A stretch of 64,000 nucleotides of DNA. It comes from Lysobacter alkalisoli. GTDB lineage: Bacteria > Pseudomonadota > Gammaproteobacteria > Xanthomonadales > Xanthomonadaceae. Position 1 is the first letter of the stretch. Each line of letters opens with the position of its first letter. Below the pieces are notes generated by a model. That model searched no databases, was not told the origin of the DNA, and was given only the letters and a program-made list of their open reading frames with translations. This document shows positions 41,099-57,206 of this stretch, piece by piece. The position numbers and the translations under genes were made by a program. The stretch is from contig NZ_CP041242.1 in assembly GCF_006547045.1 (NCBI RefSeq), forward strand, positions 3,172,001 to 3,236,000, given 5' to 3'.

Positions 41099-41211
41099 AA
41101 AAAACAGCCATTGGAAACAAGGTTTGGCATACGGCGACAGCTTACCGGCGCGGCGGCCCGGCTTGCACCGGAAGGGGAATCGCACGGCGGAGTGCGTCGT
41201 GGAAATGAAAA

Positions 41212-41244
41212 GGCGCGGACAAGGGCCGAAACCCTGTCCGCGCC
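41212..41244 (-). terminator. terminator downstream of phoP
   Basis: A 13-bp stem (ggcgcggaca-ggg with one bulge) is followed on the minus strand by ccttttcattt. It lies 39-71 bp after the phoP stop. It would end phoP messages before phoQ. Confidence 0.6.
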
Positions 41245-41282
41245 CATCGGCAGTGGTCCGTCAAAGGAAGAGCCGGGGATCG

Positions 41283-41966
41283 CTACTCCCCGCTGCGCGG
41301 GATTGCGAAGCGGTAGCCGCGGCCACGCACGGTCTCGATCGGCTTGAGCGCGCTCTCCGGATCGAGCTTCTTGCGCAGGCGGCCGATGAAGACCTCCAGC
41401 ACGTTGGAGTCGCGATCGAAGTCCTGCTGGTAGATGTGCTCGGTCAGGTCGGCCTTCGAGACCAGTTCGCCGGCATGCATCATCAGGTATTCGAGCACCT
41501 TGTACTCGTAGCTGGTCAGGTCGACGTTCTGGCCTTCGACGCTGACCGTCTGCGCGGCCAGGTCCAAGGTCACCGGCCCGCATTCCAGGGTCGGCTTGCT
41601 CCAGCCGGCGGCGCGGCGCACCAACGCGTTGATGCGCGCCAGCAACTCCTCGACGTGGAATGGTTTCACCAGGTAGTCGTCGGCGCCATGCTTGAGCCCC
41701 TCGACCTTGTCCTGCCAGCTCGAACGCGCGGTCAGGATCAGGATCGGGAACTTCTTGCCCTCGTCGCGCAACGCCTTGATCAGCTCCATGCCCGACATCT
41801 TGGGCAGGCCGAGATCGATGATGCCGAGGTCGAATGGCACCTCGCGGCCCATGTACAGCCCTTCCTCGCCGTCCTGGGCGGCATCGACCGCGTAGCCGTC
41901 ACGCTTGAGGCGGGCGGCCAGGGTTTCGCGCAGGGGGGCTTCGTCTTCTACAAGCAGGATTCGCAT
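41283..41966 (-). CDS. phoP: PhoP-like OmpR-family response regulator
   Basis: A 227-aa two-domain regulator. Start MRILLVEDEAPLRETL, from ATG 41966; the frame extends upstream without homology. Receiver: phosphorylation site Asp51 in GIIDLGLPKMSG, with TARSSWQDKVEGLKHGADDY and KPFHVEELLARI. The winged-helix DNA-binding domain has LTSYEYKVLEYLMMHAG and SNVLEVFIGRLRKKLD. In related plant and animal pathogens PhoP controls acid and Mg2+ responses. It is second in the order PepSY-phoP-phoQ. Confidence 0.92.
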   Translation of the reverse strand: MRILLVEDEAPLRETLAARLKRDGYAVDAAQDGEEGLYMGREVPFDLGIIDLGLPKMSGMELIKALRDEGKKFPILILTARSSWQDKVEGLKHGADDYLVKPFHVEELLARINALVRRAAGWSKPTLECGPVTLDLAAQTVSVEGQNVDLTSYEYKVLEYLMMHAGELVSKADLTEHIYQQDFDRDSNVLEVFIGRLRKKLDPESALKPIETVRGRGYRFAIPRSGE

Positions 41967-42044
41967 GGGAACTCCATTCGGGGAACTCCGTGGGTGGAAG
42001 GACCGCAACAAGCCGGTCCGGGCGCTGCCTACACCTTAGTCGCT

Positions 42045-42416
42045 TCAGTCGTCGTCATCACGTGTACGACGCGGATCAGGGCGGCTGGGCAGCTGGCGCG
42101 GCTGGCGCGTGGAGCTCGGGTCGTCCATGAATACACGAACGCGTCCCTGTTGATCGACGACCTTGACACGGCTGACGTCGCGGCCGTCGAACGGCACGCG
42201 CTCAGCGCTCAGGACCCGGCCACCGGTACGCCGTTCGACCCGGCGCACGGCATCGCTCAGGGCACGCTGGTCGTCGCCACGGCTGTGGCGGACCTGCGGC
42301 GATTCCCGGCTCACCTTGTCCGGCGGGCCACCCTTCTGGGCCATGGCCTCACCCGCCACCACGGCAGCCGCGACCAGCAGAACCAGGGCAGTGGTACGAA
42401 CGAGCAGGCTGGGCAT
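42045..42416 (-). CDS. PepSY-domain secreted protein
   Basis: A 123-aa protein from ATG 42416. The signal peptide ends AMA. The PepSY-like unit is ALSDAVRRVERRTGGRVLS followed by RDVSRVKVVDQQGRVRV. The C-terminus is Asp/Arg-rich. It lies 78 bp upstream of phoP on the same strand, a gene order seen in relatives. PepSY proteins can inhibit proteases or modulate two-component signalling; here a link to PhoPQ is inferred from position. Confidence 0.7.
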   Translation of the reverse strand: MPSLLVRTTALVLLVAAAVVAGEAMAQKGGPPDKVSRESPQVRHSRGDDQRALSDAVRRVERRTGGRVLSAERVPFDGRDVSRVKVVDQQGRVRVFMDDPSSTRQPRQLPSRPDPRRTRDDDD

Positions 42417-42660
42417 GGGTCTCCGGTCGGATCGGAACAGGGGACAGCAGGCGGGCGGGAGCCGTTGTGCAGGGAGCGTCAAGATGACACCGCAGGGGCA
42501 TTCTCTGAACAAGGCGGTGAATCCGGTCTGAACTTTTCCGCCCCCCGATGCGCCCCATTCAGCCATGTACCGGCGGCCGCCGCAAGCACCCATGGAAATC
42601 GCGTGCTGGCGCAGCAAGTCCTTGACCGGATTCACAAAATCCAGACCCGCTCTGAAAACA

Positions 42661-43593
42661 TCAGTAGATTTCGCCGACACAGCAACGCAACGACCCGCCA
42701 GCGGCCTCGATCGTATCCAGCGCCACGGTCTCGATGCGGAACCCCGCCGCCTGCAGCCGCTCGTGCTGCGGCGAAACCAGCGCCTGCCCGGCCCGCGTAC
42801 TCATCCATACGGTGTCGCCCAATGCGATCGCATTGCCGGCAAACGCCGCCCGCTCCGCTGCCGACAGCCGCACCGTGTGCGGTACGTACAACGAGGCGAT
42901 CGCGTCGGCGGTGGCCGGATCGGCGAAACCGTCAGGGCACACCAGCAGCGCCCGTCCGGCCAGCACGGACAGGACGACATTGGCGTGATATTCGCCCGGG
43001 GCGAGATCGAACATCAGGGTCGCGCGCAGGCCGAAGGCGTCGTGCATGAGCCGGGCGCCTGCCTCGTCACAGCGCTCGGACAGGCCACAGAAGCCGAGCC
43101 CGCGGGCGCGGTCGATGACCAGCGAACCGGTCAGTTCGCACGGATGCAGCTGTCCGGACAGGTCGTGCAGACGGTAACCGAGCACGTCGGTGAAGAAGCC
43201 GCGGATGTCGTCGCGGATCGCCTCGCGCCGGCGTACCGGATGGCGCATGCGGCCGATGATCACCCGGCCCGCGCCGCCGCCGGCCGCATCCGGATGAGCG
43301 GTCGCGAACACGTTGTTCGGGAACACCGCATCCGGCGTGGCCGGGTCGCCGGCGAAGCAGATCGTCGGCAGGCAGCGCGACAGCGCGCGATGCAGCCCGC
43401 GGTGTTCGTCGAGCGCGCACGCCGGGTCGAAGGCCGGGGCGTCGGCCATGTAGATGTTGTCGCGCGCGGATTCGTCGGCGCGGGCGAAGCCGTCCGGCGA
43501 AACCAGGAACGCGGCGCGGGCAGTGGCGGGGCCGAAGTCCGGCGCGCTGCCGTGAGCGAAGCGCAGGAAGGCGTCGGTGTCGCGGGTGATCAT
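42661..43593 (-). CDS. CtlX-like guanidino-group hydrolase
   Basis: A 310-aa protein from ATG 43593, 10 bp after the dusA stop. It belongs to the arginine deiminase/amidinotransferase superfamily (beta/alpha propeller). Motifs: AVFPNNVFATAHPD, CELTGSLVIDRARG, GEYHANVVLSVLAG with the catalytic His, and SLRCCVGEIY with the catalytic Cys at the end. The group includes citrulline hydrolases (CtlX) and dimethylarginine hydrolases. Which substrate is used cannot be told; arginase is 8 kb away. Confidence 0.8.
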   Translation of the reverse strand: MITRDTDAFLRFAHGSAPDFGPATARAAFLVSPDGFARADESARDNIYMADAPAFDPACALDEHRGLHRALSRCLPTICFAGDPATPDAVFPNNVFATAHPDAAGGGAGRVIIGRMRHPVRRREAIRDDIRGFFTDVLGYRLHDLSGQLHPCELTGSLVIDRARGLGFCGLSERCDEAGARLMHDAFGLRATLMFDLAPGEYHANVVLSVLAGRALLVCPDGFADPATADAIASLYVPHTVRLSAAERAAFAGNAIALGDTVWMSTRAGQALVSPQHERLQAAGFRIETVALDTIEAAGGSLRCCVGEIY

Positions 43594-43603
43594 GGGCCGT
43601 GGC

Positions 43604-44656
43604 TCAAGCCGGCTGGCGGTCGCTGTCGTGCGCCGTGGCGAACGACTCGGTGATCGCGATCGCCCGTTCGACCAGCGACCAGTCGGCACCGGGCTTGTGC
43701 GCGCCCTCGCTCAGCACCTGCCGGAACGCACGGCCGCCGCGCTCGTTGGCGAACAGGCCGAGCAGGTGGCGGGTGATGTGCTTTAGAAACACCCCACGCT
43801 CCAGTTGTGCCTCGACATAGGGCCGCAGCGCGCGCAGCAGCTCGGCGCGCGGCTTCACTTCACCCCCGAACCAGGCCACGTCGAGCCGGTGCAGCAGATA
43901 CGGCGTGTGATAGGCGGCGCGACCCAGCATGGCGCCGTCGGCATGGTTCAAGTGCGCGGCCGCCTCGCCGGCATCGGCGATACCGCCGTTGACCACCACC
44001 TGCAGGTCCGGCCGCTCGCGCTTGAGCCGGTACGCCCAGTCGTAGCGCAGCGGCGGCACCTCTCGGTTCTCCTTCGGGCTCAAGCCCTGCAGCCAGGCAT
44101 TGCGCGCGTGGACCACGAACATGCCGCAGCCGGCATCGGCGACGATGTCGATGAAGGCGCGGAAGCAGTCGTAGTCGTGGTCATCGTCGACCCCGAGCCG
44201 GCATTTCACCGTCACCGGAACATCCCGCCCCGAAGCCGTGCACGCCGCGACCATCGCCGCGACCGAATCGGCCACCAGCGCCGGCTCGCGCATCAGGCAG
44301 GCGCCGAAGCGCCCGGCCTGGACCCGGTCGGACGGACAACCGCAGTTGAGGTTGATCTCGTCATAGCCCCAGTCGGCACCGATCCGGGCCGCCTGCGCCA
44401 GCAACTCCGGCTCGCTGCCACCCAGTTGCAGCGCGACCGGATGCTCGGACGCATCCATGCCCAGCAGGCGCTCGCGATCGCCATGGATCACCGCGTTGGC
44501 GTGCACCATCTCCGTATACAGCCGCGCATGCGGCGCCAGCAGGCGATGGAAGACCCGGCAATGCGAGTCCGTCCAATCCATCATCGGGGCGACGGACAGG
44601 CGTAGCGCCGCGGGATCGATACGTGGACTGGCTGCAGGCTGGCTTGGGGAGGTCAT
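43604..44656 (-). CDS. dusA: tRNA-dihydrouridine synthase A
   Basis: An FMN enzyme that reduces uridines 20/20a in tRNA. The protein is 350 aa from ATG 44656 (GTG 44665 also possible). Motifs: SVAPMMDWTDSHCR, GGSEPELL, NLNCGCPSDRVQAG with the catalytic Cys, and VNGGIADAG. Complete. The first 18 codons upstream of the 32-bp repeat (44571-44602) appear to come from the island side, because another dusA 5' end with the same repeat lies at 48901-49011. The enzyme should still be functional. Confidence 0.95.
   Translation of the reverse strand: MTSPSQPAASPRIDPAALRLSVAPMMDWTDSHCRVFHRLLAPHARLYTEMVHANAVIHGDRERLLGMDASEHPVALQLGGSEPELLAQAARIGADWGYDEINLNCGCPSDRVQAGRFGACLMREPALVADSVAAMVAACTASGRDVPVTVKCRLGVDDDHDYDCFRAFIDIVADAGCGMFVVHARNAWLQGLSPKENREVPPLRYDWAYRLKRERPDLQVVVNGGIADAGEAAAHLNHADGAMLGRAAYHTPYLLHRLDVAWFGGEVKPRAELLRALRPYVEAQLERGVFLKHITRHLLGLFANERGGRAFRQVLSEGAHKPGADWSLVERAIAITESFATAHDSDRQPA
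44571..44602. repeat. attachment-like direct repeat, left copy (in dusA)
   Basis: These 32 bases (beginning gtccaatccatcatcggggc) are identical to 48926-48957. They encode RLSVAPMMDWT on the minus strand, a conserved part of DusA. A perfect 32-bp direct repeat within the 5' part of a gene known as an integration target is what site-specific insertion leaves. Confidence 0.8.
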
Positions 44657-44892
44657 GGTCGACACAACGGGATGACAGGGACCCGGAAGTCCACATTCTC
44701 CCCGGTTGCGCGCTGCGGGTCGAATCGGGCTGGAACATGAACTCGACCCATTTTTTCTGGTTCTTCTTCCATGTGAGGGGGGCTCGCCTTCAGCGAAGGC
44801 GTGGGCGCTGCCGCTTGCGTTCGATCGCCGGTTCTCGCTGCTACCTGGCTGTCTCGACGCGACCTGCCGGCCCTCCCCGGGATTCCATCTTT

Positions 44893-45058
44893 GGAACCAC
44901 CGGTCATGTCCGAACGCCGGGGGCGAAGGCCCTTGGGTGCGAAATCAAGGAGGAGGCGCCGGCCCTGGCCGGTGCCGGGGGACATTCGCATCCAAGGGCC
45001 TTCGCCCCCGGCGCCCCGGTCATCCAACAGACCCGGCGCTTTCCCCTCGATTGGGCGA
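44893..45058. repeat. 166-bp hairpin repeat, copy B
   Basis: 28-bp arms at 44915-44942 and 44986-45013 around a 43-bp core that differs from copy A at one base (44985). The outer flanks are the reverse complement of those of copy A (22202-22367), while arms and core are in the same orientation. It lies between dusA and the kinase gene, within the putative island; the gap 44657-45100 holds nothing else recognised. Confidence 0.8.
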
Positions 45059-45100
45059 AAAACCTTTCTTCTCTGGGTGTGTTGTTCGCTTGCGGGCCCA

Positions 45101-46729
45101 TCAACCCTGCGACGCGTTTCCCGACTTGCGTCCCGTCAATGGCAACGTAACCACGAATTTGCTGCCCAGGCCCGTACCCGGGCTACTCGCCACCACTTGA
45201 CCGCCGTGTGCATCCACCAGCTCGCGTACCACCGTGAGCCCGATCCCCAGGCCAACACCATTGAAGCCAATAGCGTGTTTGTCCTGCACGAACGGCTCGA
45301 AGACCTCGGCCAAGGCCCCGGCGGTGATGCCGATGCCACTGTCGGACACGCTCATCACGACAGTATCGTCGGCGACGACGACCGAAAGCCCGACCTCCCC
45401 GCCATTGGGTGTGTACTTGGACGCGTTGTCGAGCAGGTTCCTCAGGACTTGCGCCAGGCGGACCGGATCCGCGTTCAGTTCGATGGCGCATGCAGGCACC
45501 TGGACGCTGAAGTGTTGCAGGCGCGTATCCATCGCAGGCCGGCAGGCAGCGACTGCTTCGTCGATGATGTCGGCGAGGTCAACCCTCCGGCATTCGATCC
45601 TGAGCTTGCCCGTGTTGACGCGGGACATGTCCACCAGGTCGCTTACGAGGCGGACCATGTGTTCGACCTCGTTCTCGATGATGGCTTGGTAGCGCGGTAT
45701 TTCCTCCGGACGCGCCAAGCCCAGCATTTCGGCCGCGATGCGGATGGGCGTCAGCGGGTTGCGCAACTCGTGCGCAACCACGGCCAGGAACTCCTTCTGC
45801 TGCCGCTGCGCCCGCTCCGCAGCCGCCTGTAGTTCCTGCGCGTCCAGTGCGGCCAATACCAGCTCGCCATTGGCTTCGCGCAATTGCATGTAGTGCCGTT
45901 CGTATTCGCTCGACGCCTGTTCGTGGTGGATGAAGGGAGGTTGCAACGACGTCAGCGCTGGCGCCTGGCCTGCAGGCTCTTCTCCATGGAAAAGAGAACT
46001 GCCAAACCCCTGACGTTTGGCGCAGTACATGGCGGCGTCGGCACGCTCGATGAGCGTATGTGCGTCGTCGCCATCATCGGGATAGATGCAGATGCCGATG
46101 CTCGCAGTCAGGCGAAACACATGCTCGCCTACGCGACAGGGAGAACCCAGGGCCGCAATCAGCTTATTGGCGACCAGGACCGCATCGGACGGCTGGGATA
46201 TCTCCGCGAGCAGGATCACGAACTCATCGCCACCGTAGCGGCTGATCGTATCCTCATCGCGGACAAGAGAAGCCAGACGATGTGCTGTCAGCCTGAGCAC
46301 CTCATCGCCGATGGCATGGCCGAGTGTGTCGTTGATCTGCTTGAAGTTGTCGAGGTCCAGAAACAGGAGTGCCATCCGCGTGCCATGACGCTTGGCGAAA
46401 GCGATGGCACTTGCGAAGCGGTCGAGCAGCCGCGTGCGATTGGGTAAAGCCGTCAAGGCGTCGAACTCGACGGATCGCGCCAATTCGTCGACTGCCCGTG
46501 ACGCGGCTTCGGCATCGCTCCTGGCACGCAGTGCGGCGAGCACCAACCGCTCGTTCGCCTCGATCAGTCGTGCCGACTGGTTGCCGTCCAGTCGGCTCTC
46601 CGCCTCGGCCACGTCCCGGTGCAACCGGGCCAACGTCACGCGTGCCTGCTCGGCCTGCTGTCGCAGTTGCGCGAGTTTGCGCTCGGCTTCCGTCAGGGCG
46701 CTGTCTTTGTCGCGAGGCGTCTTGGTCAT
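45101..46729 (-). CDS. GGDEF-histidine kinase fusion, KaiC-associated
   Basis: A 542-aa soluble protein. An N-terminal coiled coil (about 10-88) leads into a GGDEF domain with DLDNFKQIND, intact RYGGDEF (164-170) and an inhibitory RDED site (157-160). A second helix region (about 280-315) follows, then HisKA with His320 in VVAHELRNPLTPI and an ATPase with NLLDNASKY, SDSGIGI and GLGIGLTVVREL. The two helix regions share a motif (EANERLVLAALRA / EANGELVLAALDA). Cyclase upstream of kinase in one chain is an unusual order. It starts 10 bp after the KaiC gene. Confidence 0.88.
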   Translation of the reverse strand: MTKTPRDKDSALTEAERKLAQLRQQAEQARVTLARLHRDVAEAESRLDGNQSARLIEANERLVLAALRARSDAEAASRAVDELARSVEFDALTALPNRTRLLDRFASAIAFAKRHGTRMALLFLDLDNFKQINDTLGHAIGDEVLRLTAHRLASLVRDEDTISRYGGDEFVILLAEISQPSDAVLVANKLIAALGSPCRVGEHVFRLTASIGICIYPDDGDDAHTLIERADAAMYCAKRQGFGSSLFHGEEPAGQAPALTSLQPPFIHHEQASSEYERHYMQLREANGELVLAALDAQELQAAAERAQRQQKEFLAVVAHELRNPLTPIRIAAEMLGLARPEEIPRYQAIIENEVEHMVRLVSDLVDMSRVNTGKLRIECRRVDLADIIDEAVAACRPAMDTRLQHFSVQVPACAIELNADPVRLAQVLRNLLDNASKYTPNGGEVGLSVVVADDTVVMSVSDSGIGITAGALAEVFEPFVQDKHAIGFNGVGLGIGLTVVRELVDAHGGQVVASSPGTGLGSKFVVTLPLTGRKSGNASQG

Positions 46730-46738
46730 GGCACAGGC

Positions 46739-48217
46739 TCAACTGCCGTCGGCGCCGCGGACTTGCTTCGTCGTCGGCCTGCCACCGAGCAGCCCCTCCT
46801 GATCGGCAAGTATTTCGCCAATGTGGATACCGTCGTCATCGATGCTGAACTCGCGCAACTCGTCCGAATGCGCGCTTGCACGCACCTTGACCACCGCCAT
46901 CACGCGACGCAGCCGGCTGTCGACCTCGATATAACGCTGCACGATGATGGCGTCGGTCAGGAACGCGGTGCCATACGGGCTGAAGCGCAGATCGATGTAG
47001 CGGTCTTCCAGTTCGGATGTCATCAGCACGGTGACGCCGGCACCACTCAGGGCGGTGACCAGGCGCAGCAACGACTCGCGGAAGTCTTCCCGGAAGGTCG
47101 GTGCCAGGGCGAGCTCGAATGCCGACAGCGAGTCGATGACGACGCGGCTCGCATCGAGCCTGCGGATCTCGTTGAGCAGCAGTTGCACGATCTCGTCGAT
47201 AGACAGGTCGGGTGCGCGGCTGTCCACCAGGCCCACGCGGCCGCTTTCGATCAGGTCCGTGAGCAGGCGGTTGCGCGACCGGTTTGGACGCTGCTCGAAG
47301 ACCGCAATGACGCCGGTCTCGCCGCAACGCGCGCCCTCGGCGAGGAATGCGGCGGCGAGGATGCTCTTGCCGGATCCGGAAGGGCCGGCCACGAGCATCG
47401 AATAGCCGCACGGCAAACCGCCCCCCATCATGTCGTCCAGATGCGGCACGCCCATCAGCAGGCGTTTGCCGGCCGACCGCGGGTTCGCTTCGGCATGCGC
47501 CGCTAGCGCCACGCGCGCCGGCGCGAACACTTCGATGCCGGACGCCGTGATGCGGAACGTATGCAGTCCCGGCAGCGTCGGCTGGCCGCGCATCTTCATC
47601 ACCTCCATCTTGCGCACCATGGAGTTGCGCTGGACGCTCTGGCGCAGCCAGATCAGACCATCGGCCACCGTCAGCACCGGATTGGCGTCGGCCTCGGTTT
47701 CGGTGAAGTATTCGCCGATCAGGAAGGTCGTGGCCTGCCAGCTGGTCATCAGCATGCCGAGTTGCTGGACGAACTGCTGCAGGTTGTTGTGCGGCTGGCC
47801 CTCGCCGCGACTCGCGTGCACCACGGAGCGGAACGAGTCGACGAACACCAGTGCCGGACGATGTGCTTCCACCTCGGCGACCATGCGTCGCAGGACCTGG
47901 TCCAGGTCGCCCGCCGAAGCGTCGTCGGACAAATTGATGAAGTGGATCGAGTGGTTGATCGCCTCGCTGTCGAAGAACTCGAACTGCTGCTGATAGCGCA
48001 ACATCTTCAGGGGCGGCTCACCCAGCACTGTGAAATAGAGCGCCGGGCGCTCCTTCGTGGCCAGCGCAAACATCATCTGATGCGCCAGCGTGGTCTTGCC
48101 GCAACCGGGCGGCCCGGCGATGAGATTGAACGAGAATTCCGGCAGCCCCCCACTGAGTACTTCGTCCAGGCCAGGCACGCCGGTTGCCAGGCGGTTGATT
48201 GTCACTTTGGTGGTCAT
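46739..48217 (-). CDS. KaiC-like double RecA-fold ATPase
   Basis: A 492-aa protein from ATG 48217, which overlaps the stop of the preceding gene (ATGA). Two RecA units: the first with P-loop GPPGCGKTT (35-43), the second with GPSGSGKSIL near 265. The catalytic Glu pairs of true KaiC are altered (VLGEPP and VFEQRP). The clock autophosphorylation residues Ser431/Thr432 correspond to Ala418/Phe419 here (GTAFLTDAIIVQ). It is thus a non-clock KaiC homologue, probably an ATP-driven switch working with its operon partners. No KaiA or KaiB is present. Confidence 0.88.
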   Translation of the reverse strand: MTTKVTINRLATGVPGLDEVLSGGLPEFSFNLIAGPPGCGKTTLAHQMMFALATKERPALYFTVLGEPPLKMLRYQQQFEFFDSEAINHSIHFINLSDDASAGDLDQVLRRMVAEVEAHRPALVFVDSFRSVVHASRGEGQPHNNLQQFVQQLGMLMTSWQATTFLIGEYFTETEADANPVLTVADGLIWLRQSVQRNSMVRKMEVMKMRGQPTLPGLHTFRITASGIEVFAPARVALAAHAEANPRSAGKRLLMGVPHLDDMMGGGLPCGYSMLVAGPSGSGKSILAAAFLAEGARCGETGVIAVFEQRPNRSRNRLLTDLIESGRVGLVDSRAPDLSIDEIVQLLLNEIRRLDASRVVIDSLSAFELALAPTFREDFRESLLRLVTALSGAGVTVLMTSELEDRYIDLRFSPYGTAFLTDAIIVQRYIEVDSRLRRVMAVVKVRASAHSDELREFSIDDDGIHIGEILADQEGLLGGRPTTKQVRGADGS

Positions 48218-48645
48218 GACGAAGTGTCCTGCGCGGGCGGGCCGCTTGAAAAGGGGGCCCATACGGGACGAAGCAATCGCTCGGTGAGCGAGAGCCCGAT
48301 GAGACTGGACAGCAGCTCGTGGAACGTCTGCAGAAATGCGCCGCCAGCGACGGCGGCATCGGTGCTGCTTTGCTGCGCAAAAACAGATCTCAGTGCCATC
48401 AGATCCATGGTGGCCTGGCTGTCTTCATGCATACCCGCCAGCCACGGATGGGCGTGGCCGGCGAGGTAGAGGCTGCGCTTGTAGAGCACGGCAACGCCCC
48501 GCTGGCCGATGATGGGGCTCAGGGCGGCATCGATGGCCTGCCATGTCGAGACCATCGTATCGGCAATCTGCCCGGCAGTCTCCGCCCTGCGCGCCAGGAC
48601 AATTGCGATCCGTTGGCTTTCTTGGCTTTCCACTGGATCCGCCAT
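48214..48645 (-). CDS. unknown protein, first gene of the KaiC operon
   Basis: A 143-aa protein taken from ATG 48645; the frame is open to 48891, and an ATG at 48765 is an alternative. Neither has a strong ribosome site. It is mainly helical, with IADTMVSTWQAIDAALSPII, GQRGVAVLYKRSLYLAGHAH and a C-terminal GGAFLQTFHELLSSLIGLS. No domain is recognised. Its stop overlaps the KaiC start, so the two are made together. It may be a partner or regulator of the ATPase (inference from coupling). Confidence 0.7.
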   Translation of the reverse strand: MADPVESQESQRIAIVLARRAETAGQIADTMVSTWQAIDAALSPIIGQRGVAVLYKRSLYLAGHAHPWLAGMHEDSQATMDLMALRSVFAQQSSTDAAVAGGAFLQTFHELLSSLIGLSLTERLLRPVWAPFSSGPPAQDTSS

Positions 48646-48900
48646 TGGCCGTTGGCTACAGGTCTCTTGATGGTACGCCTTTGGGGGTTGTCCTGCCTCG
48701 GCACCACAAAGGCCCGGGATGCGCGCCAATGCCCGGGAGGTCTTGACTCGATCGGGAAGGCTCATGCTTGCGCGACCCGCGCACGTTCGGGACCGCGAGG
48801 TGGAAAGGCCCATTCCCACCACGTCCACATTGAGTCGTTGGCCAGCCCTCGAGCGACTTCCTTGCAACCTGGCACAGAACCACTGACCCAAGCATTTGTT

Positions 48901-49011
48901 TTAGCTGATTATTCTTGAGCACACGGTCCAATCCATCATCGGGGCGACGGACAGGCGCACCGAAGCCGGATCGGGCATCGGACCGGAGGACGAAGAGATG
49001 GGAGCGGTCAT
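48901..49011 (-). pseudogene. relic of an original dusA 5' end
   Basis: A 36-codon frame from ATG 49011. It opens MTAPISSSSGPMPDPASV, then RLSVAPMMDWT as in dusA, then diverges (VCSRIIS) and stops. The divergence coincides with the left end of the 32-bp repeat. This is the expected leftover when an island enters dusA and supplies a replacement 5' end. The stretch 48646-49123 holds only this relic and an AT-rich patch near 48890-48920. Confidence 0.75.
48926..48957. repeat. attachment-like direct repeat, right copy
   Basis: Identical over 32 bp to 44571-44602. The flanking bases differ on both sides (c/g on the left, t/c on the right), so the repeat is exactly bounded. It lies inside the dusA relic. 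Confidence 0.8.
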
Positions 49012-49123
49012 GGGCACGGCAGGGGGTGATGGGGCGGTCAGCACCTGAAGAGGGCGGCGACCAGCAGGTGGACCGGCCCTGGCCGGCGCAGCTCACGTGG
49101 CGACGGCAACGTATAGCGCCGCC

Positions 49124-49999
49124 TCAGTCGAGGCGCTTGCCCATCCTGCGGAGTTCGCGGGCCAGCAACCACAACGCGCCGGCAAGGTACGGCAGGCATG
49201 ACGGTACCCACATGATCAGCCCCGCCAACTGCTGGTCGTCGAACGCAGCAATGCCCAGTTCCGTCGCGCGGTCGGCATAGACCGGGTACACGATGCGCTG
49301 CGAGAACGTCAGCAACGCCCCGAGGAACCCCATCTGCATCATCACCACGACGATGGCGATCGCGCCCGACAGCGCGCCCGCCACGTCGTCGCGAATGCGC
49401 TGCCACAGCAAGGCCCACAACCACAGGCCCGCCAGCAGGAAGCTGCCGTGCATCACCCAGTGCGCCGGTCCGCTGCGCATCACCAGCGCCAGCGCGGCAG
49501 GCGCATGCCAACCCCACATCACCGCAACATTGGCGAACGTGGCCAGCGCGAGCGTGCGCCCGAATCCGGGCGCCAATGGCAGCAATGCACGATGCAATGC
49601 CTTCGACCAACGCGGCGGCAGCGCGGCGGCCACCGCCGCCATCGGCCGGCCCGCCAGCAGCAACGGTGGCGCCAGCGCCAGCAGCAGCATGTGCTGACCC
49701 ATGTGCGCGGACAACAACCATGCACCGTATGCATCGACCGGCCATACCATTGCCAGCGCCAGCACACCCATGCCTGCAAAGAACAGCGCCGCTTCGATCA
49801 TCGCGATTCCGCGCCCCGGGTGCCCGTCGCGCCACAAGCGCCATAGCCCGGCCGCATACAGCATGGTCATCAGCAACAGCGCGGGAACGACCGGCGACAG
49901 CGACCAGGCGGTGGCCAACGTCGGCACCTCCCCGGAAAATTCGCCTGTCGCCCACGTGCGACCCGGCAAGATGGCCAGCATCGGGGCGACACGAGCCAT
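49124..49999 (-). CDS. ctaG: cytochrome c oxidase assembly factor CtaG (caa3 type)
   Basis: A 291-aa membrane protein from ATG 49999 (other starts at 50026 and 49981 are possible). About seven helices with conserved His/Trp: LLSAHMGQHMLLLALAPPLL, FANVAVMWGWHAPAALALV, PAHWVMHGSFLLAGLWLWAL. This pfam09678-type protein is needed to assemble caa3/aa3 oxidases. It heads the oxidase cluster together with the divergent HemJ-like gene. Confidence 0.85.
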   Translation of the reverse strand: MARVAPMLAILPGRTWATGEFSGEVPTLATAWSLSPVVPALLLMTMLYAAGLWRLWRDGHPGRGIAMIEAALFFAGMGVLALAMVWPVDAYGAWLLSAHMGQHMLLLALAPPLLLAGRPMAAVAAALPPRWSKALHRALLPLAPGFGRTLALATFANVAVMWGWHAPAALALVMRSGPAHWVMHGSFLLAGLWLWALLWQRIRDDVAGALSGAIAIVVVMMQMGFLGALLTFSQRIVYPVYADRATELGIAAFDDQQLAGLIMWVPSCLPYLAGALWLLARELRRMGKRLD

Positions 50000-50038
50000 C
50001 CGGCCCGGCGTCGTCCCCCTTCCCATGGAGCCTGCACG

Positions 50039-50530
50039 ATGTACTTCTGGCTGAAGGTCGCGCACATCGCCAGCATGACGGTCTGGTTCACCGGGCTGTT
50101 CTTCCTGCCGCGGCTGTTCGTTGCGCGACACCTGCGCGAACGCGATGCGCGAGCCGGCTTCTTCAATCCGGTGGCGAACCACTTGTTCTTCCGCATCGCC
50201 ACACCCGCGGGCGTGTTGACGATCGCATTCGGGATGGCGTTGATCCCGTGGGTACAGCCGGGCGGGTGGCTGGTGGCGAAACTGGCCGTGGTGACACTGG
50301 CTGTGCTGTTGCACCTGTACCTCGGCCTGCACCTGTATGCGTTGGGACATGGCCACGACAAGCACAGCGCGATGTTCTACCGGCTGCTCGGCTGGTTGCC
50401 GCTGCTGCTGTTGCTGGCCGCGGCCGCGCTGACCGGCGCCAAGCCGCGCAGCTTTGGCGAGGCACCGGCCCCGGGCGATGTGGCGATGGTCGGACATGCT
50501 CATTCGCCGGGCGCGTCGTCGACGCCGTAG
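50039..50530 (+). CDS. HemJ/CopD-like membrane protein
   Basis: A 163-aa protein starting MYFWLKVAHIASMTVWFTGL, then FFLPRLFVARHLRE, signatures of HemJ-type protoporphyrinogen oxidases. His in KVAHI and LHLYALGHG are likely heme ligands. Four helices. It may make heme for the neighbouring oxidase, but a role as CopD-like protein is possible. Its 3' end overlaps the convergent DUF2231 gene by 31 bp. Confidence 0.72.
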   Translation: MYFWLKVAHIASMTVWFTGLFFLPRLFVARHLRERDARAGFFNPVANHLFFRIATPAGVLTIAFGMALIPWVQPGGWLVAKLAVVTLAVLLHLYLGLHLYALGHGHDKHSAMFYRLLGWLPLLLLLAAAALTGAKPRSFGEAPAPGDVAMVGHAHSPGASSTP

Positions 50531-51021
50531 TCCTTCGAGGCATGGTCGTACACGCCGATGCCGTGGCCGAAGGTCAGCGTGCCGCCCAGCCAGCCGACCA
50601 CGATCACCATCAGCAGGCACAGCGACGATTGCACCACGGCCCAAGGCCAGATGGCGGCGGGATCGGCCGCGCGCAGCCACACCCCCAGCGCGGCCAGCGC
50701 CAGCAGCATGACCCCGGCGACGAAGTGGTTCCATACCGAGACATGCCGGCGTGCGACGCGGATCAGGAACATGTCCAGCATGCCGAACACCGCGGCGAAC
50801 AGGCCACTGGCCAGCCCGATCAGGTTCAGCCACCACGACAGGCGCGCCCAGAACCCGTCACTTGTCCACTGGTAGACCAGGTCCGAGGGCAGGAGCAAGC
50901 TCAGGCACACGATCGGATAGACCACCAGGATCGGATGCAGCGGATGGCGCTTGAGCGCCACCCGGCTTTCCACCGTCGGGCTGCGCTTCTCCGGAACCGG
51001 CTGTTTCAGGCTCTTGCGCAT
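50500..51021 (-). CDS. DUF2231-like membrane protein
   Basis: A 173-aa protein from ATG 51021 with gagag upstream. Signature VALKRHPLHPILVVYPI at the start, followed by four helices and a conserved HPLHP pair of His residues. The end is acidic (DYGVDDAPGE). Proteins of this family are often near oxidases or heme proteins. Role unknown. It is probably the last gene of the minus-strand oxidase operon. Confidence 0.78.
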   Translation of the reverse strand: MRKSLKQPVPEKRSPTVESRVALKRHPLHPILVVYPIVCLSLLLPSDLVYQWTSDGFWARLSWWLNLIGLASGLFAAVFGMLDMFLIRVARRHVSVWNHFVAGVMLLALAALGVWLRAADPAAIWPWAVVQSSLCLLMVIVVGWLGGTLTFGHGIGVYDHASKDYGVDDAPGE

Positions 51022-51031
51022 CGCCACTCTC

Positions 51032-51370
51032 TCATTCGCATGGCGCCAGCAACACTACCGGCAACGCAGTGAACAGGATCGCCACGGCCGACAGCAGCGA
51101 CAGCCATACCACCAGCCTCGCCGCGAACCGCGTCGCGCCTGGGTCGTCGGCTGCAGCGGCCAGCGCGCGCCGGCCAAGCGCACCGAGCCACGCCGTGGCG
51201 CCCCAGGCCAGCACGGTGAGCGCCAGCATGCCGACCACGCCACCGACCTGGTTCCAGCCGCGGGCGCAGACCAGACCCTGCAGGCTGTAGATCGCCACGA
51301 AATGCAGCGCCCACGGCAGCATTGGCGCGGCGATCCAGCCGAAGCGGCTCCGGCGCACCTCCGGCTTCAT
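51032..51370 (-). CDS. small membrane protein of the oxidase operon
   Basis: A 112-aa protein whose ATG overlaps the oxidase I-III stop (ATGA). Three helices, including PWALHFVAIYSLQGLVCARG and VGGVVGMLALTVLAWGATAW. Its position suggests an oxidase accessory or small subunit. No family recognised. Confidence 0.7.
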   Translation of the reverse strand: MKPEVRRSRFGWIAAPMLPWALHFVAIYSLQGLVCARGWNQVGGVVGMLALTVLAWGATAWLGALGRRALAAAADDPGATRFAARLVVWLSLLSAVAILFTALPVVLLAPCE

Positions 51371-53889
51371 CCCTGCACCACCGGAAACAGATGCACCACG
51401 GCCCAGGCGATCGCTGCCTGCACCAGCGTGTAGCGCAGGAAAGCCAGGGCCACGCGCCATTCCAACGGACGTGCGCCATCGACATGGCCGCAGGCCACGC
51501 GTGCCAGCACGAAGCCGCAGATCAAGGCCGCAATCGCGACATGCACCACGGCGAACCCTGCCAATATCCAGACCACCGAGGCATAGGCATGCGCCTGCGG
51601 AACGGCGACAAGACCCGTCACCGCCGACGGGTAGACCAGCAGGTACGCGCAGGCCGTCGCGATGGCGAATGCCGCCAACGGCACATGCCGCGCACGGCGC
51701 CCGCCCAAAAACGCCCGGCCGGCGAAATGCGAGCACGCCCAGCACGCCGCGAGCAACGCCAGTGCGGCCAACGACCCCCATGTCAGCCGTGGATCGCCAG
51801 TGCCGGCGGGCGGCCACGCCCCGGCGCCGAGCCAAAGGTAGAAATACGCGAACACCAGCGATGCGAACAGGGAACCATCGATCAGCATCGTGATCACCAC
51901 CGCCCACCAGCCGGGAGCGTTGCGGCTGGCCGATTGCGGCGGCAGCGAAAGTCCGCTCCCGGCATCGACCCGCAACGGAGCATGGCGGTGGCCCGTCGTC
52001 CACATCCATGCAAGGAACCCGCCCGCCAGCGGCAGCAGGCATGCCGCCGATAGCAGGTAGTACCCGGCGATGAAGAACGCCAACATCGAGGCGATCAGCA
52101 TCGCGCAAACCAGCGGCCACCACGACGATGACGACAGGAACACCACCTGCTCCGGCTTCGCGGAGACCGGCCCGGTACCCAGCAGTTCGCGACGTCCGCT
52201 TCGCGGATCGCCAAGCAAACCACCCGTGTCGACCGTGCGCGCGGCAAGGTTGCGGTCGTGCCACAGCGGATACCGCGCGCCGACGACCGGGATCGACGCG
52301 AAGTTGTAGTTCGGGACCGGGCAAGGCACCGCCCATTCCAGCGTGCCGGCGCGCCACGGGTTGCCGCGTCCGCGTCGTCCATGCACGAAACACAACGCCG
52401 CATCGACCAAGATCGCGATGATCCCCACCGCCAGCACGAAGCCCGCCGCCGTCGACAGCAGGTTGAGCCACTGCACGCCCAATTCCTCCGGATAGGTGTA
52501 GGCGCGGCGCGGCATGCCCAGCAGCCCGGTCAGGTGCATCGGCAGGAAGGTCAGATTGAAGCCGATGAATACCAGCCAGAACGCGGTACGGCTGGTGCTT
52601 TCCGACGGCATCCGCCCGCTGGCCAGCGGCAGCCAGTAGTACAGCCCGGCGAACAACGGGAACATCATCCCGCCGATCAGCACGTAATGCAGGTGCGCAA
52701 CGACGAAGTGGGTGTCGTGCGCCTGCCAGTCGAACGGCACGAAGGCCAGCATCACCCCGGTCAGCCCGCCGAGCACGAACACCACGAAGAAGCCGAAGAT
52801 GTGCAGCATCGGCACCCGCAGCCACGGCCGCCCGGACCACAGCGTCGCGATCCACGCGAACACCTGGATCGCGGTCGGAATCGCCACCGCCATGCTCGCC
52901 GCGCTGAAGAAGGCCAGTGCCAGCAGCGGGATGCCCACTGCGAACATGTGGTGCACCCACAAGCCGAAGCTGAGGAAACCGGTGGCGACCAGGGCCAGCA
53001 CGATCCACGTATAGCCGATGATCGGCCTGCGCGCGAAGGTCGGTACCACCATCGACACCACGCCCGCCGCCGGCAGGAAGATGATGTAGACCTCAGGGTG
53101 CCCGAACAACCAGAACAGGTGCTGCCACAACAGCGGATCGCCACCGAGCGCCGGGTCGAAGAACACGAAACCGAAGGCGCGCTGGATCTCCAGCAGGATG
53201 CTGGCCAGGATCAGCGGGGGAAAGCCGAACGCGATCATGAACGCAGTCACCAGGATCGCCCAGGCGAACAGCGGCATCCGCCGGATGTCCATGCCCGGCG
53301 CGCGCGTCACCAGCACCGCGACGATCAGTTCGACCGCCGCAGTCACCGCCGCGATCTCGGCAAATGTCACGCCGATCAGCCAGAAGTCGGGCCCCTTGCC
53401 CGGCGAGAACGTGGCATCGGTCAACGGCACGTACATGAACCAGCCGCCGTCGGGCGCGGCATCGAACAGCAGGCTGGAATACAGGAACAGGCCGCCGAAC
53501 AGGTAGCACCACCAACCGAACGCGCTCATCCGCGGGAACGGCAGGTCGCGCGCACCGATCATCTTCGGCAGCAGGTACATCGCGAAGCCTTCCATGATCG
53601 GCACCGCGAACAGGAACATCATCGTCGTGCCGTGCAGGGTCACGAACTGGTTGAAGCGCTGCGGATCCAGCACCTCGGCGTCGAACCACGCCAGCTGCAG
53701 ACGAATGAACATCGCCAGCAATCCGCCGACCAGCAGGAACGCGAAGCCGGCGGCGATGAAGCGCAGGCCGACGGTGCCGTGGTTGACCGCCCGCAGCTGA
53801 CCGACGAGTCCAGGCTCGTTGCACCAGATGCGATCGAGTTCCGCCAACCGGCGCGCGTTCTCCTTCGCGTCGATGACAACCGGATTCAT
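51367..53889 (-). CDS. ctaD: cytochrome c oxidase, fused subunits I and III
   Basis: An 840-aa protein from ATG 53889. The first about 560 residues are subunit I with the CuB/heme motifs HLFWLFGHPEVY, LWVHHMFAVG and VVAHLHYVLIGG. The remaining 280 are subunit III-like (SWWPLVCAMLIASMLAFFIAG, LIDGSLFASLVFAYFYLWLG, LEWRVALAFLRYTLVQAAI). No separate subunit III gene is present. It reduces O2 with electrons from subunit II and pumps protons. Start and stop overlap both neighbours. Confidence 0.93.
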   Translation of the reverse strand: MNPVVIDAKENARRLAELDRIWCNEPGLVGQLRAVNHGTVGLRFIAAGFAFLLVGGLLAMFIRLQLAWFDAEVLDPQRFNQFVTLHGTTMMFLFAVPIMEGFAMYLLPKMIGARDLPFPRMSAFGWWCYLFGGLFLYSSLLFDAAPDGGWFMYVPLTDATFSPGKGPDFWLIGVTFAEIAAVTAAVELIVAVLVTRAPGMDIRRMPLFAWAILVTAFMIAFGFPPLILASILLEIQRAFGFVFFDPALGGDPLLWQHLFWLFGHPEVYIIFLPAAGVVSMVVPTFARRPIIGYTWIVLALVATGFLSFGLWVHHMFAVGIPLLALAFFSAASMAVAIPTAIQVFAWIATLWSGRPWLRVPMLHIFGFFVVFVLGGLTGVMLAFVPFDWQAHDTHFVVAHLHYVLIGGMMFPLFAGLYYWLPLASGRMPSESTSRTAFWLVFIGFNLTFLPMHLTGLLGMPRRAYTYPEELGVQWLNLLSTAAGFVLAVGIIAILVDAALCFVHGRRGRGNPWRAGTLEWAVPCPVPNYNFASIPVVGARYPLWHDRNLAARTVDTGGLLGDPRSGRRELLGTGPVSAKPEQVVFLSSSSWWPLVCAMLIASMLAFFIAGYYLLSAACLLPLAGGFLAWMWTTGHRHAPLRVDAGSGLSLPPQSASRNAPGWWAVVITMLIDGSLFASLVFAYFYLWLGAGAWPPAGTGDPRLTWGSLAALALLAACWACSHFAGRAFLGGRRARHVPLAAFAIATACAYLLVYPSAVTGLVAVPQAHAYASVVWILAGFAVVHVAIAALICGFVLARVACGHVDGARPLEWRVALAFLRYTLVQAAIAWAVVHLFPVVQG

Positions 53890-54600
53890 TGCGCGTTCCC
53901 GTCCGCCGCCACGCCGGCATTGGCCCGCAGCCACGCCGGCAACTCATCGGGGTCCAGCACCACCACGTCGAATGCCATCGTTGCGTGGTCCAGCCCGCAG
54001 AACTCGGCACACTGCCCGCGCATCGGCCCGGGCTGGTCGGCGCGCAGCCGGATCACGTTCTCGCGGCCCGGGATCGCGTCCATCTTTCCGCCCAGTCGTG
54101 GAATCCAGAAGCTGTGGATCACGTCCCTGCTGCCGACGCGGAATTCCACCATCTGTCCAGACGGCAGCACCAGGCGGTCGAAGGTCGACGCGATCGTGGC
54201 ACCGTCGCCGTCGAGATAATCGAACTGCCATTGCCATTGCCGCGCGGTCACGCGCACCACCAGGTCGACATCGCTGCCGCGGCCAGTGACGCGGTCGCTG
54301 GTGCGCGTGCCGTAGACCAGCAATGCCGCCAGCAGCACCGTCGGCACCAGGACGCCACCGATCACGATCAGCTTCCTGCCCGCAACCGGTGCCATGCCGC
54401 GTCCGCGCCGCATCGCCAGCAACAACAACCCCATCACGATCGTCCACACCGCCGTGGCCGTGCCGAACATCAGCCACCATGTGGTAGCTATGGCGGACGC
54501 GGCCGGCCCTGCCGGGTCCAGCGCGGACTGCGGTCCCGCGCACGCGGACAGGAGCATCGCGGCGATCGCGATGCAGGCTTTCCCGCCCCAGTTCCCGCAT
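53886..54600 (-). CDS. ctaC: cytochrome c oxidase subunit II (apparent 5' frameshift)
   Basis: From ATG 54557 the protein is 223 aa but would have only five residues before the lipobox Cys. Removing one G from the ggg at 54594-54596 joins ATG 54600 to a full lipoprotein signal (MRNWGGKACIAIAAMLLSAC). The rest is intact: two membrane helices, His ligand in VIHSFWIPRLGGKMD and the CuA site CAEFCGLDHATM. It passes electrons to subunit I. Its stop overlaps the next start (ATGA). The extra G is probably an assembly error. Confidence 0.85.
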
Positions 54601-54916
54601 GGAACGACGATGGTTCACCCTCCTGCTGCGCCAGCCATGTGGGCCGCACGCCACCGGCATGCATGAAAGCGCAGTCTGTACAGGCGGTCGTGAAGTCGGC
54701 GCGATTCCACTGCGTGCCGATGGCAGCCGTTGGGTGCTCAGCACCGATGATGCCGCGGCCGCGATGTGCGCCAAGGTATCGACGAGGCGTTGTCGACCTT
54801 CATGCGAGAGGACGCGGACGACTGAATGTGCGACTTGAGGGGCTGGTGCCTTCGGTATCCGCTGCGTTGTGGATGCGGATCATCCGGAGTATGTTGCTGG
54901 GCAATGCCCCATGGCC

Positions 54917-55246
54917 CCTCTCGCGAGGCTTGGCGACGCTGATGGCGCGCCAGGCGGAACTCTCGGCGTGGACCTCGGCTCACCCATGGCAGGCGGCAGC
55001 GGTCTTCTTCACGGTCATATGTTGCGGCGGCCGCGCTATCGATACCGGACGCTGCAGTGCTGACGCTGGCCGCCGGCGCGATCTTCGGCCTCGGCCGCGG
55101 CATGCTGATCGTATCGTTCGCCAGTTCGATCAGAGCCACTCTGGCGACGCTGGTCGCGCGATACCTGCTGCGCGAACCGCTGAAGAACCGCTACGGCGAG
55201 TGCCTGCGCAGCAACGCAACTGGCGCGCATCGAATCGCCGGGTGAC
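54917..55246 (+). pseudogene. decayed TVP38/TMEM64 (VTT-domain) gene
   Basis: Fragments of a VTT membrane protein in different frames. The first reads LATLMARQAELSAWTSAHPWQAAAVFFTV. After an extra base near 55020 the next frame gives AALSIPDAAVLTLAAGAIFG and SFASSIRATLATLVARYLLR. A second shift occurs near 55215 and the reading soon stops. A normal gene would be about 240 aa. The lesions are multiple, so unlike the nearby one-base cases this is a true pseudogene. The stretch 54601-54916 before it has no recognised gene. Confidence 0.65.
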
Positions 55247-55593
55247 GTGCTCTGAATCGCCGTCGCCAGCGCTGCTACGGCCGCACTGCCGGCCAGGGTT
55301 CGAGCTGGGTACGGCGCCGGAAGCCAGCCCTCGGGCAGGGTCTGCGGCAACGCGGCGCATGAGATCTGCCCCGTCTGGATGGGCACCCCGGTCAGGGCAT
55401 ACTGGGGCTGCCGCGACCCTTCGGCGACGCCCGGTGGCGGATCCGCGGTCGCGGCGGCCTTCGCGCGCACGGCCGACCTGCTGGAACGACGGCTGCAACG
55501 CCTGCTCGCCCTGACCCTGGCGACGATGGAACCGGCCACGCTGGCCAGGGAATTGAACGCGATCTAAGACGCGATACCGGAATGAGGTGACGC
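55247..55593. other. intergenic stretch with no certain gene
   Basis: GC-rich sequence between the TVP38 remnant and the next gene. A plus-strand frame near 55379-55567 ends LLERRLQRLLALTLATMEPAT and could be a leftover C-terminus. No start or domain supports it. The end of this stretch contains a gaggtg ribosome site for the next gene. Confidence 0.4.
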
Positions 55594-56409
55594 ATGGTCT
55601 CCCCGATCGACGCATCGTTGGCCTGGCTGGGACGCGGGCTGGCCCGGTTCCTGGCCCAGCGCGTGCAGACCCATGGCGTGGCGCCGGAAACACCGCGGGA
55701 TTTGCTGCTGGCCGCCCTGCGTCCCGGCGACGTGCTTCTCGTCGAAGGCCACAGCCGGATCAGCACCGCCATCAAGTACCTGACCCAGTCCACCTGGTCC
55801 CATGCCACGCTCTATGTCGGCGGCTACCTGCAAGCGGCGCACGGCAATTCCGCGCATTGTTTCGTCGAGGCCGACATCGTGGATGGCGTGCGCAGCGTCG
55901 GTCCCGAGGAGTACGCCGGGCACCACACCCGAATCTGCCGGCCGGTGGGGCTGGGCGACGACGCCAGGCGCGCGGTCTGCGCCTACGTCATCGAGCGCAT
56001 CGGCGCGCACTACGACCTGCGCAACGTCGTCGACCTGGCCCGCTACCTGCTGCCCACGCCGCCGGTGCCGACCCGGCTCCGTCGACGGATGCTGGCATTC
56101 GGCAGCGGCGACCCTACCCGCGCCATCTGTTCGACGCTGATCGCGCAGGCGTTTCATTCCATCCGCTATCCGATCCTTCCGCTCGCGATCCGACGGGACC
56201 GGGCGACGCCCGATTGCCCGGACTGCTTCGACGAGGTGCTGCATATCCGCCACCACAGCCTGTTCGCGCCGCGGGACTTCGACGTCTCCCCCTACTTCCG
56301 GATCATCAAGCCGACGCTCGATCAGGGTTTCGATCACAGGTCAGTGCAATGGAGCGACGACTGTTTCGCTGCCCAGGAGGAAGCCCCGACGAATCGTTCG
56401 ACCAGATGA
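55594..56409 (+). CDS. YiiX-like papain-fold hydrolase
   Basis: A 271-aa protein with gaggtg 5 nt before the ATG. Permuted NlpC/P60-type features: LRPGDVLLVEG near 42, TWSHATLYVGG with the likely catalytic His, and AICSTLIAQAFHSI with the likely catalytic Cys. This group includes E. coli YiiX and lecithin-retinol-like amidases; they cleave peptide or ester bonds. There is no signal peptide. The C-terminus has several His/Arg/Asp residues. The stretch 56410-56570 after it has no gene. Confidence 0.78.
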   Translation: MVSPIDASLAWLGRGLARFLAQRVQTHGVAPETPRDLLLAALRPGDVLLVEGHSRISTAIKYLTQSTWSHATLYVGGYLQAAHGNSAHCFVEADIVDGVRSVGPEEYAGHHTRICRPVGLGDDARRAVCAYVIERIGAHYDLRNVVDLARYLLPTPPVPTRLRRRMLAFGSGDPTRAICSTLIAQAFHSIRYPILPLAIRRDRATPDCPDCFDEVLHIRHHSLFAPRDFDVSPYFRIIKPTLDQGFDHRSVQWSDDCFAAQEEAPTNRSTR

Positions 56410-56570
56410 CGCCAGTGCTTGGCATCTGCTGCGCGATCAGGGCCGTCTGCTGACGCTGCGACGGCCATGAGCGGGTTGCGGCCAGCGGATCAGGATGCGG
56501 CAGCGGTTCCAGCGGCGGATACGACAACGGCGGCCGTAGCCGCCGTTGTCGATCGTTGCCGGTGCCAGTA

Positions 56571-57206
56571 TCAGTCGCGTTCCTTGCCTTTGCCTTTGCC
56601 CTTTCCTTTGTCGTTACCTGGTCGGCCGTTGTTGCCCCGGTCCGCTGGCGGTCCCTTGGCGGCATTGCCCGACTTGCCTGCCGCGTCCCTGCCCTGCGCG
56701 CCCCTGCCGCGACCGGGGAAATCGCGCTCCAGTTCGGCGTCGAGGGTGATCCCGCGACCCCAGCGGTCATAGCTGGGCACGAACCCCTTCTTCAGGCGAT
56801 GGAATTCCGGCGAACCGGGCTTGATGCCCAGATCCTTGGCGACCACGCCCCAGCCCCTGCCATGGTCGCGCTCCCAGATGTCGGCCACGTAGCGGCACGG
56901 GCGGCCGATGATCGAGGCGATTGTGCAGGCCATGTAGACGTCGCCCGGCGCCCAGCGGCGCGTGCCCAGCAGTTCGCTGACCAGGTCGCGCGGCGCGCCG
57001 TGGTAGCGCACCATCTCGTCGACGAACGGCTCGCGGTAGCGGCTGCCGTAACGGTTCATGTCATCCAGCCAGTTGTCGACCCAGACATCGCCGGAACGCG
57101 GGTTCCAGCCGAAGGTGAAGTCCTGGGCCGCGGCAATGCCGGGCAGCATGGCCAGGCCGGCGGCCAGCATGGCCGTGAAGGCGAATCTGCGGGTGGGGGC
57201 AAGCAT
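56571..57206 (-). CDS. secreted protein with Lys/Gly-rich tail
   Basis: A 211-aa protein from ATG 57206 with gaggag 10 nt upstream. The signal peptide ends AAA. The middle reads SGDVWVDNWLDDMNRYG, YREPFVDEMVRYHGAPRDL, GDVYMACTIASIIGRPCRYV and RDHGRGWGVVAKDLGIKPGS, a small helical domain I have seen only as an unnamed conserved unit. The end is low complexity (GNDKGKGKGKGKERD). First of three minus-strand genes coding small secreted proteins. Function unknown. Confidence 0.65.
   Translation of the reverse strand: MLAPTRRFAFTAMLAAGLAMLPGIAAAQDFTFGWNPRSGDVWVDNWLDDMNRYGSRYREPFVDEMVRYHGAPRDLVSELLGTRRWAPGDVYMACTIASIIGRPCRYVADIWERDHGRGWGVVAKDLGIKPGSPEFHRLKKGFVPSYDRWGRGITLDAELERDFPGRGRGAQGRDAAGKSGNAAKGPPADRGNNGRPGNDKGKGKGKGKERD

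Follow-up and report, generated by a model that had tools for sequence, protein, structure and literature searches.

The dusA gene in the window (the whole 64,000-nucleotide stretch that was analysed) poses a question. Its start is present twice, and the DNA between the two starts holds a small operon and no integrase. What entered dusA here, and how did the gene come to have a host-like start next to the inserted block? The features are collected in Table 1.

Table 1. Features of the dusA island and its borders, in window positions
Feature	Position	Strand	Basis or remark
Functional dusA	43604..44656	-	Start is the island-supplied ATG 44656, with GTG 44665 as alternative; NF008774 483.5 bits and PF01207
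dusA-side copy of the 32-bp attachment segment	44571..44602	-	Repeat search
Native-type dusA 5' end and putative promoter region	44603..44737	-	Alignment to congeners, promoter pattern
Multicopy palindromic repeat	44751..45072	.	Between dusA promoter region and operon
GGDEF + HisKA + HATPase_c protein, 542 aa	45101..46729	-	Pfam
KaiC-like double-domain ATPase	46739..48217	-	PF06745 230.5 bits
Small protein, 143 aa, predicted all-helical	48214..48645	-	No family or fold match
Far end of island	48646..48925	.	No DAI arm motif found
Far copy of the 32-bp attachment segment	48926..48957	-	Repeat search
Relic of displaced dusA start, 36 codons	48901..49011	-	Match to G002 dusA start

The 32-bp sequence GTCCAATCCATCATCGGGGCGACGGACAGGCG is present as two identical copies (32/32) in direct orientation with an interval of 4.36 kb, and the repeat pair extends to 48 nt at 90%. 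A search of the 3.857-Mb genome that allowed up to 3 mismatches found exactly two copies, and the reversed-pattern control gave 0. Both copies lie in the dusA frame, at RLSVAPMMDW. A chance repeat was therefore rejected. The insert has a GC content of 0.636, compared with 0.674 for the 64-kb window, and ranks 6 among 120 windows by 4-mer distance; its composition is unusual, not extreme.

The relic begins MTAPISSSSGPMPDPASV and stops soon past the far 32-bp copy. It matches the dusA start of the congener G002 at 87.4% over 95 bp, and that of G003 at 76.7% over 103 columns. In G002, a single dusA locus aligns to window 41121-44618 and 48924-49018 with an overlap at the core, and its start is contiguous with the dusA body. 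The same two-part alignment of one dusA locus is observed in G003. As one uninterrupted dusA in each of these genomes is aligned to both pieces, the relic is the displaced old dusA start. A separate conserved gene was rejected, since in G002 and G003 the same sequence serves as the normal start of dusA. According to these results, it is close to certain that the locus is an insertion bounded by attachment sites, with a displaced dusA start. The original prediction had described exact 32-bp direct repeats around 4.36 kb, a relic of the old gene start carrying the conserved dusA start, and an entry into dusA at the known dusA island site that pushed the old start aside and brought a new one. All of these hold, the repeats at the predicted coordinates and with only two copies in the genome. 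It had also proposed to compare related genomes for an empty site, and this gave a divided answer: the uninterrupted dusA start is present in relatives (the dusA side and the relic), but no relative was found which has the cox right flank and no island.

On the right of the relic, window 49124-56700 contains CtaG and cox genes, which form a separate second insertion. CtaG is absent from all six congeners and is present in 17 of the 198 family genomes searched, among which no relative with the cox block and without the island was found. In 15 of the 16 family genomes other than that of the window, CtaG is located away from dusA by coordinates, and the remaining one (G013) has no listed dusA position. 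The gene at 56.7 kb of the window sits within about 1 kb of dusA in G002, G062 and G131.

Three tyrosine recombinases over the Pfam cut-off are present in the genome, namely XerD, XerC and an integron integrase (TIGR02249). The integron integrase is located beside a candidate cassette array (L003, G000:C1:1378969). For the dusA-type integrase (DAI), a residue-motif search was blank even where DAI exists, and instead we used a profile made from nine DAI-like genes that adjoin dusA in genomes of the family. The profile gave no match in window 40-60 kb, with a positive control that worked, and in the whole genome it gave just weak matches to XerC and the integron integrase. Thus the claimed lack of an integrase in the island was reproduced with the profile in window 40-60 kb, and the proposed search for dusA-type integrases elsewhere in the genome detected none beyond these weak matches.

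The cargo consists of three minus-strand genes in a tight operon, which encode the small protein, the KaiC-like ATPase and the GGDEF-histidine kinase. There is a 4-nt overlap between the stop of the small gene and the ATG of the KaiC-like gene, and a 9-bp gap precedes the GGDEF-kinase gene. The expectation of a KaiC-type signalling operon rather than phage genes agrees with the Pfam matches (GGDEF, HisKA and HATPase; a double KaiC domain). A known defence system was rejected as the cargo, since just weak partial PADLOC matches were obtained. The small protein has no Pfam family; it is predicted to be all-helical with a mean pLDDT of 81, and no fold match was found at E <= 0.001. The reading as a circadian clock was also rejected. 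The circadian KaiC models score under the cut-off (TIGR02655, 137.8 bits against 546.25; NF006799, 222.5 against 408), and in the second domain of the cargo KaiC, Ala-Phe is aligned where clock KaiC has a Ser-Thr pair, which we take to be the site of the phosphorylation dyad of circadian KaiC. Neither KaiA nor KaiB is among the three genes of the operon.

The KaiC gene of the operon is absent from all six congeners. From 357 relatives, 80 KaiC loci were kept. The small gene adjoins KaiC in 80/80 loci; a kinase-like match is located beside KaiC in 77/80, and the match spans both the GGDEF and kinase parts in 19/80. Many Pseudomonas versions of the kinase have no GGDEF part. In the Pseudomonas loci, the same small gene adjoins a KaiC that is 75-81% identical. 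KaiC-like proteins of environmental Pseudomonas are reportedly linked to stress resistance and biofilm, as the title of a 2023 paper by Terrettaz et al. has it. From this title and the domains, a role of the operon in stress or biofilm signalling may be supposed. The operon was rejected as a typical cargo of DAI islands: in the fetched flanks of the 80 loci, the dusA motif was found in 1 and a DAI-profile match in 2. Among the 30 KaiC-bearing genomes (of 395), KaiC is within 10 kb of dusA in three (the window's genome G000, G141 and G254), counted where dusA positions are listed. In Luteimonas suaedae, the same three genes are found, in the orientation of dusA, about 3 kb upstream of it, and this dusA has a single core copy; the KaiC-dusA geometry of G254 matches that of L. 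suaedae. In G141 (L133), the distance from the dusA match to the start of the KaiC gene is 757 bp; the two are oppositely oriented, and the core is not present a second time.

At the dusA-side end of the window island, the last 60 nt have a GC content of 0.65, compared with 0.32-0.55 in the dusA-side ends of 16 family islands with intact or broken DAI. For native-classed loci (G021 left out), the same 60 nt have a GC content of at least 0.6 in most and lower in a few; since these few fall below 0.6, GC alone is not a criterion of a native end. G083, G119 and G196 are classed as native with AT-rich starts and may carry unrecognised islands; the starts of G119 and G196 resemble island ends. The N-terminus of the window dusA ends SPRIDPAAL, close to those of G001 (SIDPAAL) and G006 (PIDPAAL). 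The dusA N-termini of DAI islands are foreign, e.g. LNPQGV and KKNEI. A promoter-like sequence, TTCGAC-N18-GAGAAT at 44695-44724, agrees with those of G003 and L. suaedae. This pattern is present upstream of 5 of the 12 native dusA genes in this comparison, at 0/16 DAI ends, and once in the 64-kb window.

The near end is aligned with five of the six congeners and L. suaedae with scores of 87-113. In the random-segment comparison, which used 7 native loci, the scores for G001, G003, G005, G006 and L. suaedae beat 1847/1847 random segments, and the score for G002 is above all but one (n = 1847). The score for G004 did not stand out from the random segments in this way, and the near end shows no resemblance to it. 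None of the 16 DAI-island ends is aligned with the near end, the best score being 63. These results support well that the dusA-side end of the window island was replaced by native-type sequence of this genus. Thus the original prediction that the insert supplied a new 5' end of dusA is correct in that a new start was supplied, but the start is of the native type with a putative promoter, not of the foreign island type.

We surveyed 395 genomes of the family, and the core motif was found in 361. In 18 genomes, that of the window included, two core copies share a contig and a strand, with 2.9-66 kb between them. G180 was added, in which the relic matched and the genome's own dusA copy is too divergent for the pattern; G136 was noticed by chance among loci fetched as native; and G519 and G566, from outside the family, came to light when 372 genomes of the order, a set that overlaps that of the family, were scanned. 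G195 and G364 (copies on different contigs), G054, G080 and G355 (different contigs and strands) and a third G298 copy on contig C87 were left out. The resulting number of 22 islands is a lower bound, as copies that contain indels or over 2 mismatches escape the pattern search. With larger islands searched up to 20 kb at the dusA end and in short far-end pieces, DAI of intact length is located beside the dusA copy in 14 islands, DAI is broken in 3 (G204, G304 and G519), and no DAI is present inside 5 (G000, G114, G136, G298 and G566). In the 15 islands with complete or frameshifted DAI, the core copies of a pair differ at 0-8 of 32 positions, with a mean of 4.9.

The native type of end and the lack of DAI go together. 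A native dusA-side end is present in 4 of the 5 islands without DAI inside and in 0/17 with intact or broken DAI (Fisher p 0.0007). Seen from the other side, no DAI is inside 4/4 native-ended islands, compared with 1/18 others. G114, G136 and G298 have native-type dusA starts at both ends, as in the window. The broken-DAI islands G204, G304 and G519 keep a foreign AT-rich dusA-side end. G566 is the exception among the integrase-less islands, having no DAI and yet an island-type dusA-side end. In this genome (L183:2483-4141), a 1.63-kb integrase-less piece with two small genes in the ORF list lies between two island-type dusA starts; islands in tandem are the probable explanation of this piece.

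The dusA-side segment of G114 consists of native upstream sequence with 85% identity to the relic copy over 185 bp; this 185-bp native segment is followed by an interruption of 3.15 kb and then by 54 bp at 100%. Four congeners of G114 (G012, G063, G154 and G185) have an uninterrupted locus. The G114 cargo comprises a GntR-aminotransferase regulator, a reverse-transcriptase fragment and a protease-like protein, and a DAI-like gene is located elsewhere in its genome. The double-start island of G298 (L146:876-8597) carries a type I restriction system and a Fic protein; a DAI-like fragment of 33 residues lies immediately beyond the far copy of this island, and its dusA is truncated at the end of the contig. 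The double-start island of G136 (L154:1025-3385) is 2.4 kb in size and encodes two proteins without a Pfam or PADLOC family.

The two ends were also compared for arm-like motifs. At the dusA-side ends, at least one such motif is present in 14/16 DAI islands; at the native ends, none is present in G000, G114 and G136, and one in G298. For the far ends, a motif was learned from 15 DAI far ends, with TGGTGC-like repeats about 31 nt beyond the core. It is present at the usual offset in G114 (score 16.3, 0/4000 null) and G136 (score 12.3, about 3/4000 null, p 0.0008), and was not detected at the far ends of G298 and G204 or at that of the window (score 1.3, p 0.33). The 30 nt adjoining the repeat at the window far end are AT-rich (GC 0.37), as in most DAI far ends, and the relics have the same end point in native-ended islands as in DAI islands. 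These results directly support a DAI origin for G114 and G136. As the window's own far end gives no arm motif score, a DAI origin of the window island is suggested by analogy. Helper-driven excision of the window island looks doubtful, because the dusA-side end is of the congener type and no arm-like motifs were detected at either end. The earlier description of the island as either decayed or dependent on a helper does not fit as it was put, since the broken-integrase islands keep the foreign end and the end of the window island is congener-type with no arm-like motifs detected.

The reading that we prefer, at slightly better than even chances, is that the window holds what was once a DAI island, in which recombination with the dusA locus of a relative replaced the integrase end and so fixed the cargo. 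An ancestor would have received a DAI island in dusA. DNA of an island-free relative would then have entered by recombination in dusA at one of its ends, the other end being joined to a point within the island. This single replacement step would remove the integrase and the arm sites, and would restore a normal promoter and N-terminus to dusA. What would remain as scars are the relic, the attachment copy at the far end and the cargo that was not removed. Today dusA would be expressed from the imported start, and the three cargo genes as one operon. The operon itself may be island cargo, or may have come in as the donor's neighbour of dusA, as in L. suaedae today.

The joining point may have been the multicopy repeat at 44751-45072. 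This 322-bp palindromic repeat occurs again at genome positions 247 kb and 1474 kb, part of it is also present at window 22247-22345, and related sequence was found in 42 of 198 family genomes; its fold z is -6.6. Elsewhere in the window, 31092-31207 gives a TwoAYGGAY RNA match of 44.1 bits against a gathering score of 43.

As a mechanism, replacement of the integrase end appears to be the best of several readings of the sequence. The exact att-like repeats, the displaced start, the native near end and the parallels in G114, G136 and G298 argue for it. Against it are the far ends of the window and G298, which have no arm motif; G566, which is integrase-less with an island-type end; the outside DAI-like fragment and contig end of G298; the near end, unlike G004; and the chance entry of G136. 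No recombination breakpoint was seen within dusA, the congeners being too diverged, and no strain with an intermediate state was found.

An integrase-less mobile module would be an alternative. It could be a circle whose attachment end is a native dusA start that it had captured, with DAI acting in trans for the integration, or a piece excised from a donor's dusA neighbourhood by DAI at a pseudo-site. In its favour, native starts at both ends are seen in three genera, the islands are small (2.4-9.1 kb), a 245-bp segment is common to G114 and G136 at 85%, and the L. suaedae operon is located upstream of dusA with the same orientation. The module is nevertheless unlikely, as the near ends do not have the arm-like motifs typical of DAI ends, which leaves little for DAI to bind, and the pseudo-site version gives no explanation for the far-end DAI arms of G114 and G136.

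Plain decay would mean an ordinary DAI island whose integrase was deleted and whose own dusA-side end was kept, i.e. a CIME (cis-mobilizable element). The missing integrase, the two attachment copies, the three other islands with a broken integrase and a fourth (G566) with none fit this reading. All four of these islands keep the island-type end, however, and the window end is native-type with a putative promoter, which makes plain decay rather improbable.

It is also improbable, at about one chance in ten, that DAI was never involved, and that DNA of a relative with the KaiC operon beside dusA was joined by homologous recombination on one side and illegitimately on the other. The L. suaedae operon upstream of a dusA with one core copy, the window far end without a DAI arm motif, and the few KaiC loci with a DAI-profile match in their flanks are consistent with such an event. 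Random joining, however, would not make the relic stop at the attachment segment exactly as in DAI islands, and the AT-rich 30 nt beside the relic again resemble most DAI far ends. A simple duplication of the dusA start within the lineage, with the operon inserted later, would account for two dusA starts and is very improbable, since the two starts differ outside the repeat and best resemble different congeners (G005, G003 and G001 for the near start; G002 and G003 for the relic).

Two wider statements follow replacement of the integrase end by a relative's DNA, and both are tentative. Recombination with island-free relatives may repeatedly strip dusA islands of the integrase and foreign end, restore the host promoter and freeze the cargo; the chances of this seem somewhat less than even. 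Two native dusA starts around an integrase-less block, found in four cases from three genera, might likewise be the signature of an island cured on one side, though we would not yet bet on it evenly. The double native start would then be a readable scar, in which the integrase end of an island was exchanged for host sequence. If so, it gives a genomic record of partial curing and a route for mobile cargo to become ordinary host DNA, and can be tested in any genus with dusA islands.

In the part of the literature covered, no paper was found on integrase-less dusA islands formed by recombination. In the sections of Farrugia et al. 2015 (PMC4482086) considered here, the 5' sequence of dusA derives from the island, the integrase is the only gene common to all 94 islands, and the smallest island is 4,758 bp. 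That set was gathered through the integrase, and therefore integrase-less islands are absent from it and stayed out of sight. The window island is like those islands in its place in dusA, the direct repeats at both ends, and the displaced and newly supplied 5' end. It differs in having no integrase, in being smaller than 4,758 bp, and in its native-type dusA-side end; the foreign dusA-side end as a feature of DAI islands is derived here from the 16 family islands, not from that paper.

A CIME, as described in the relevant part of PMC5704250, keeps both attachment copies without integration or transfer genes, and has its own att ends. The window island likewise keeps attL and attR, has no integration or transfer genes, and its three cargo genes are not mobility genes; unlike a CIME, one of its ends is host-type, and no arm motifs were detected. 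Its cargo is KaiC-like outside cyanobacteria, as are the KaiC-like proteins of Pseudomonas. As the portions of PMC4774983 and PMC4795794 on this subject have it, it is an accepted notion that transformation can cure a genome of mobile elements, and there too recombination with element-free DNA removes element sequence. The window island would differ from that case in losing one end only, as read from its sequence.
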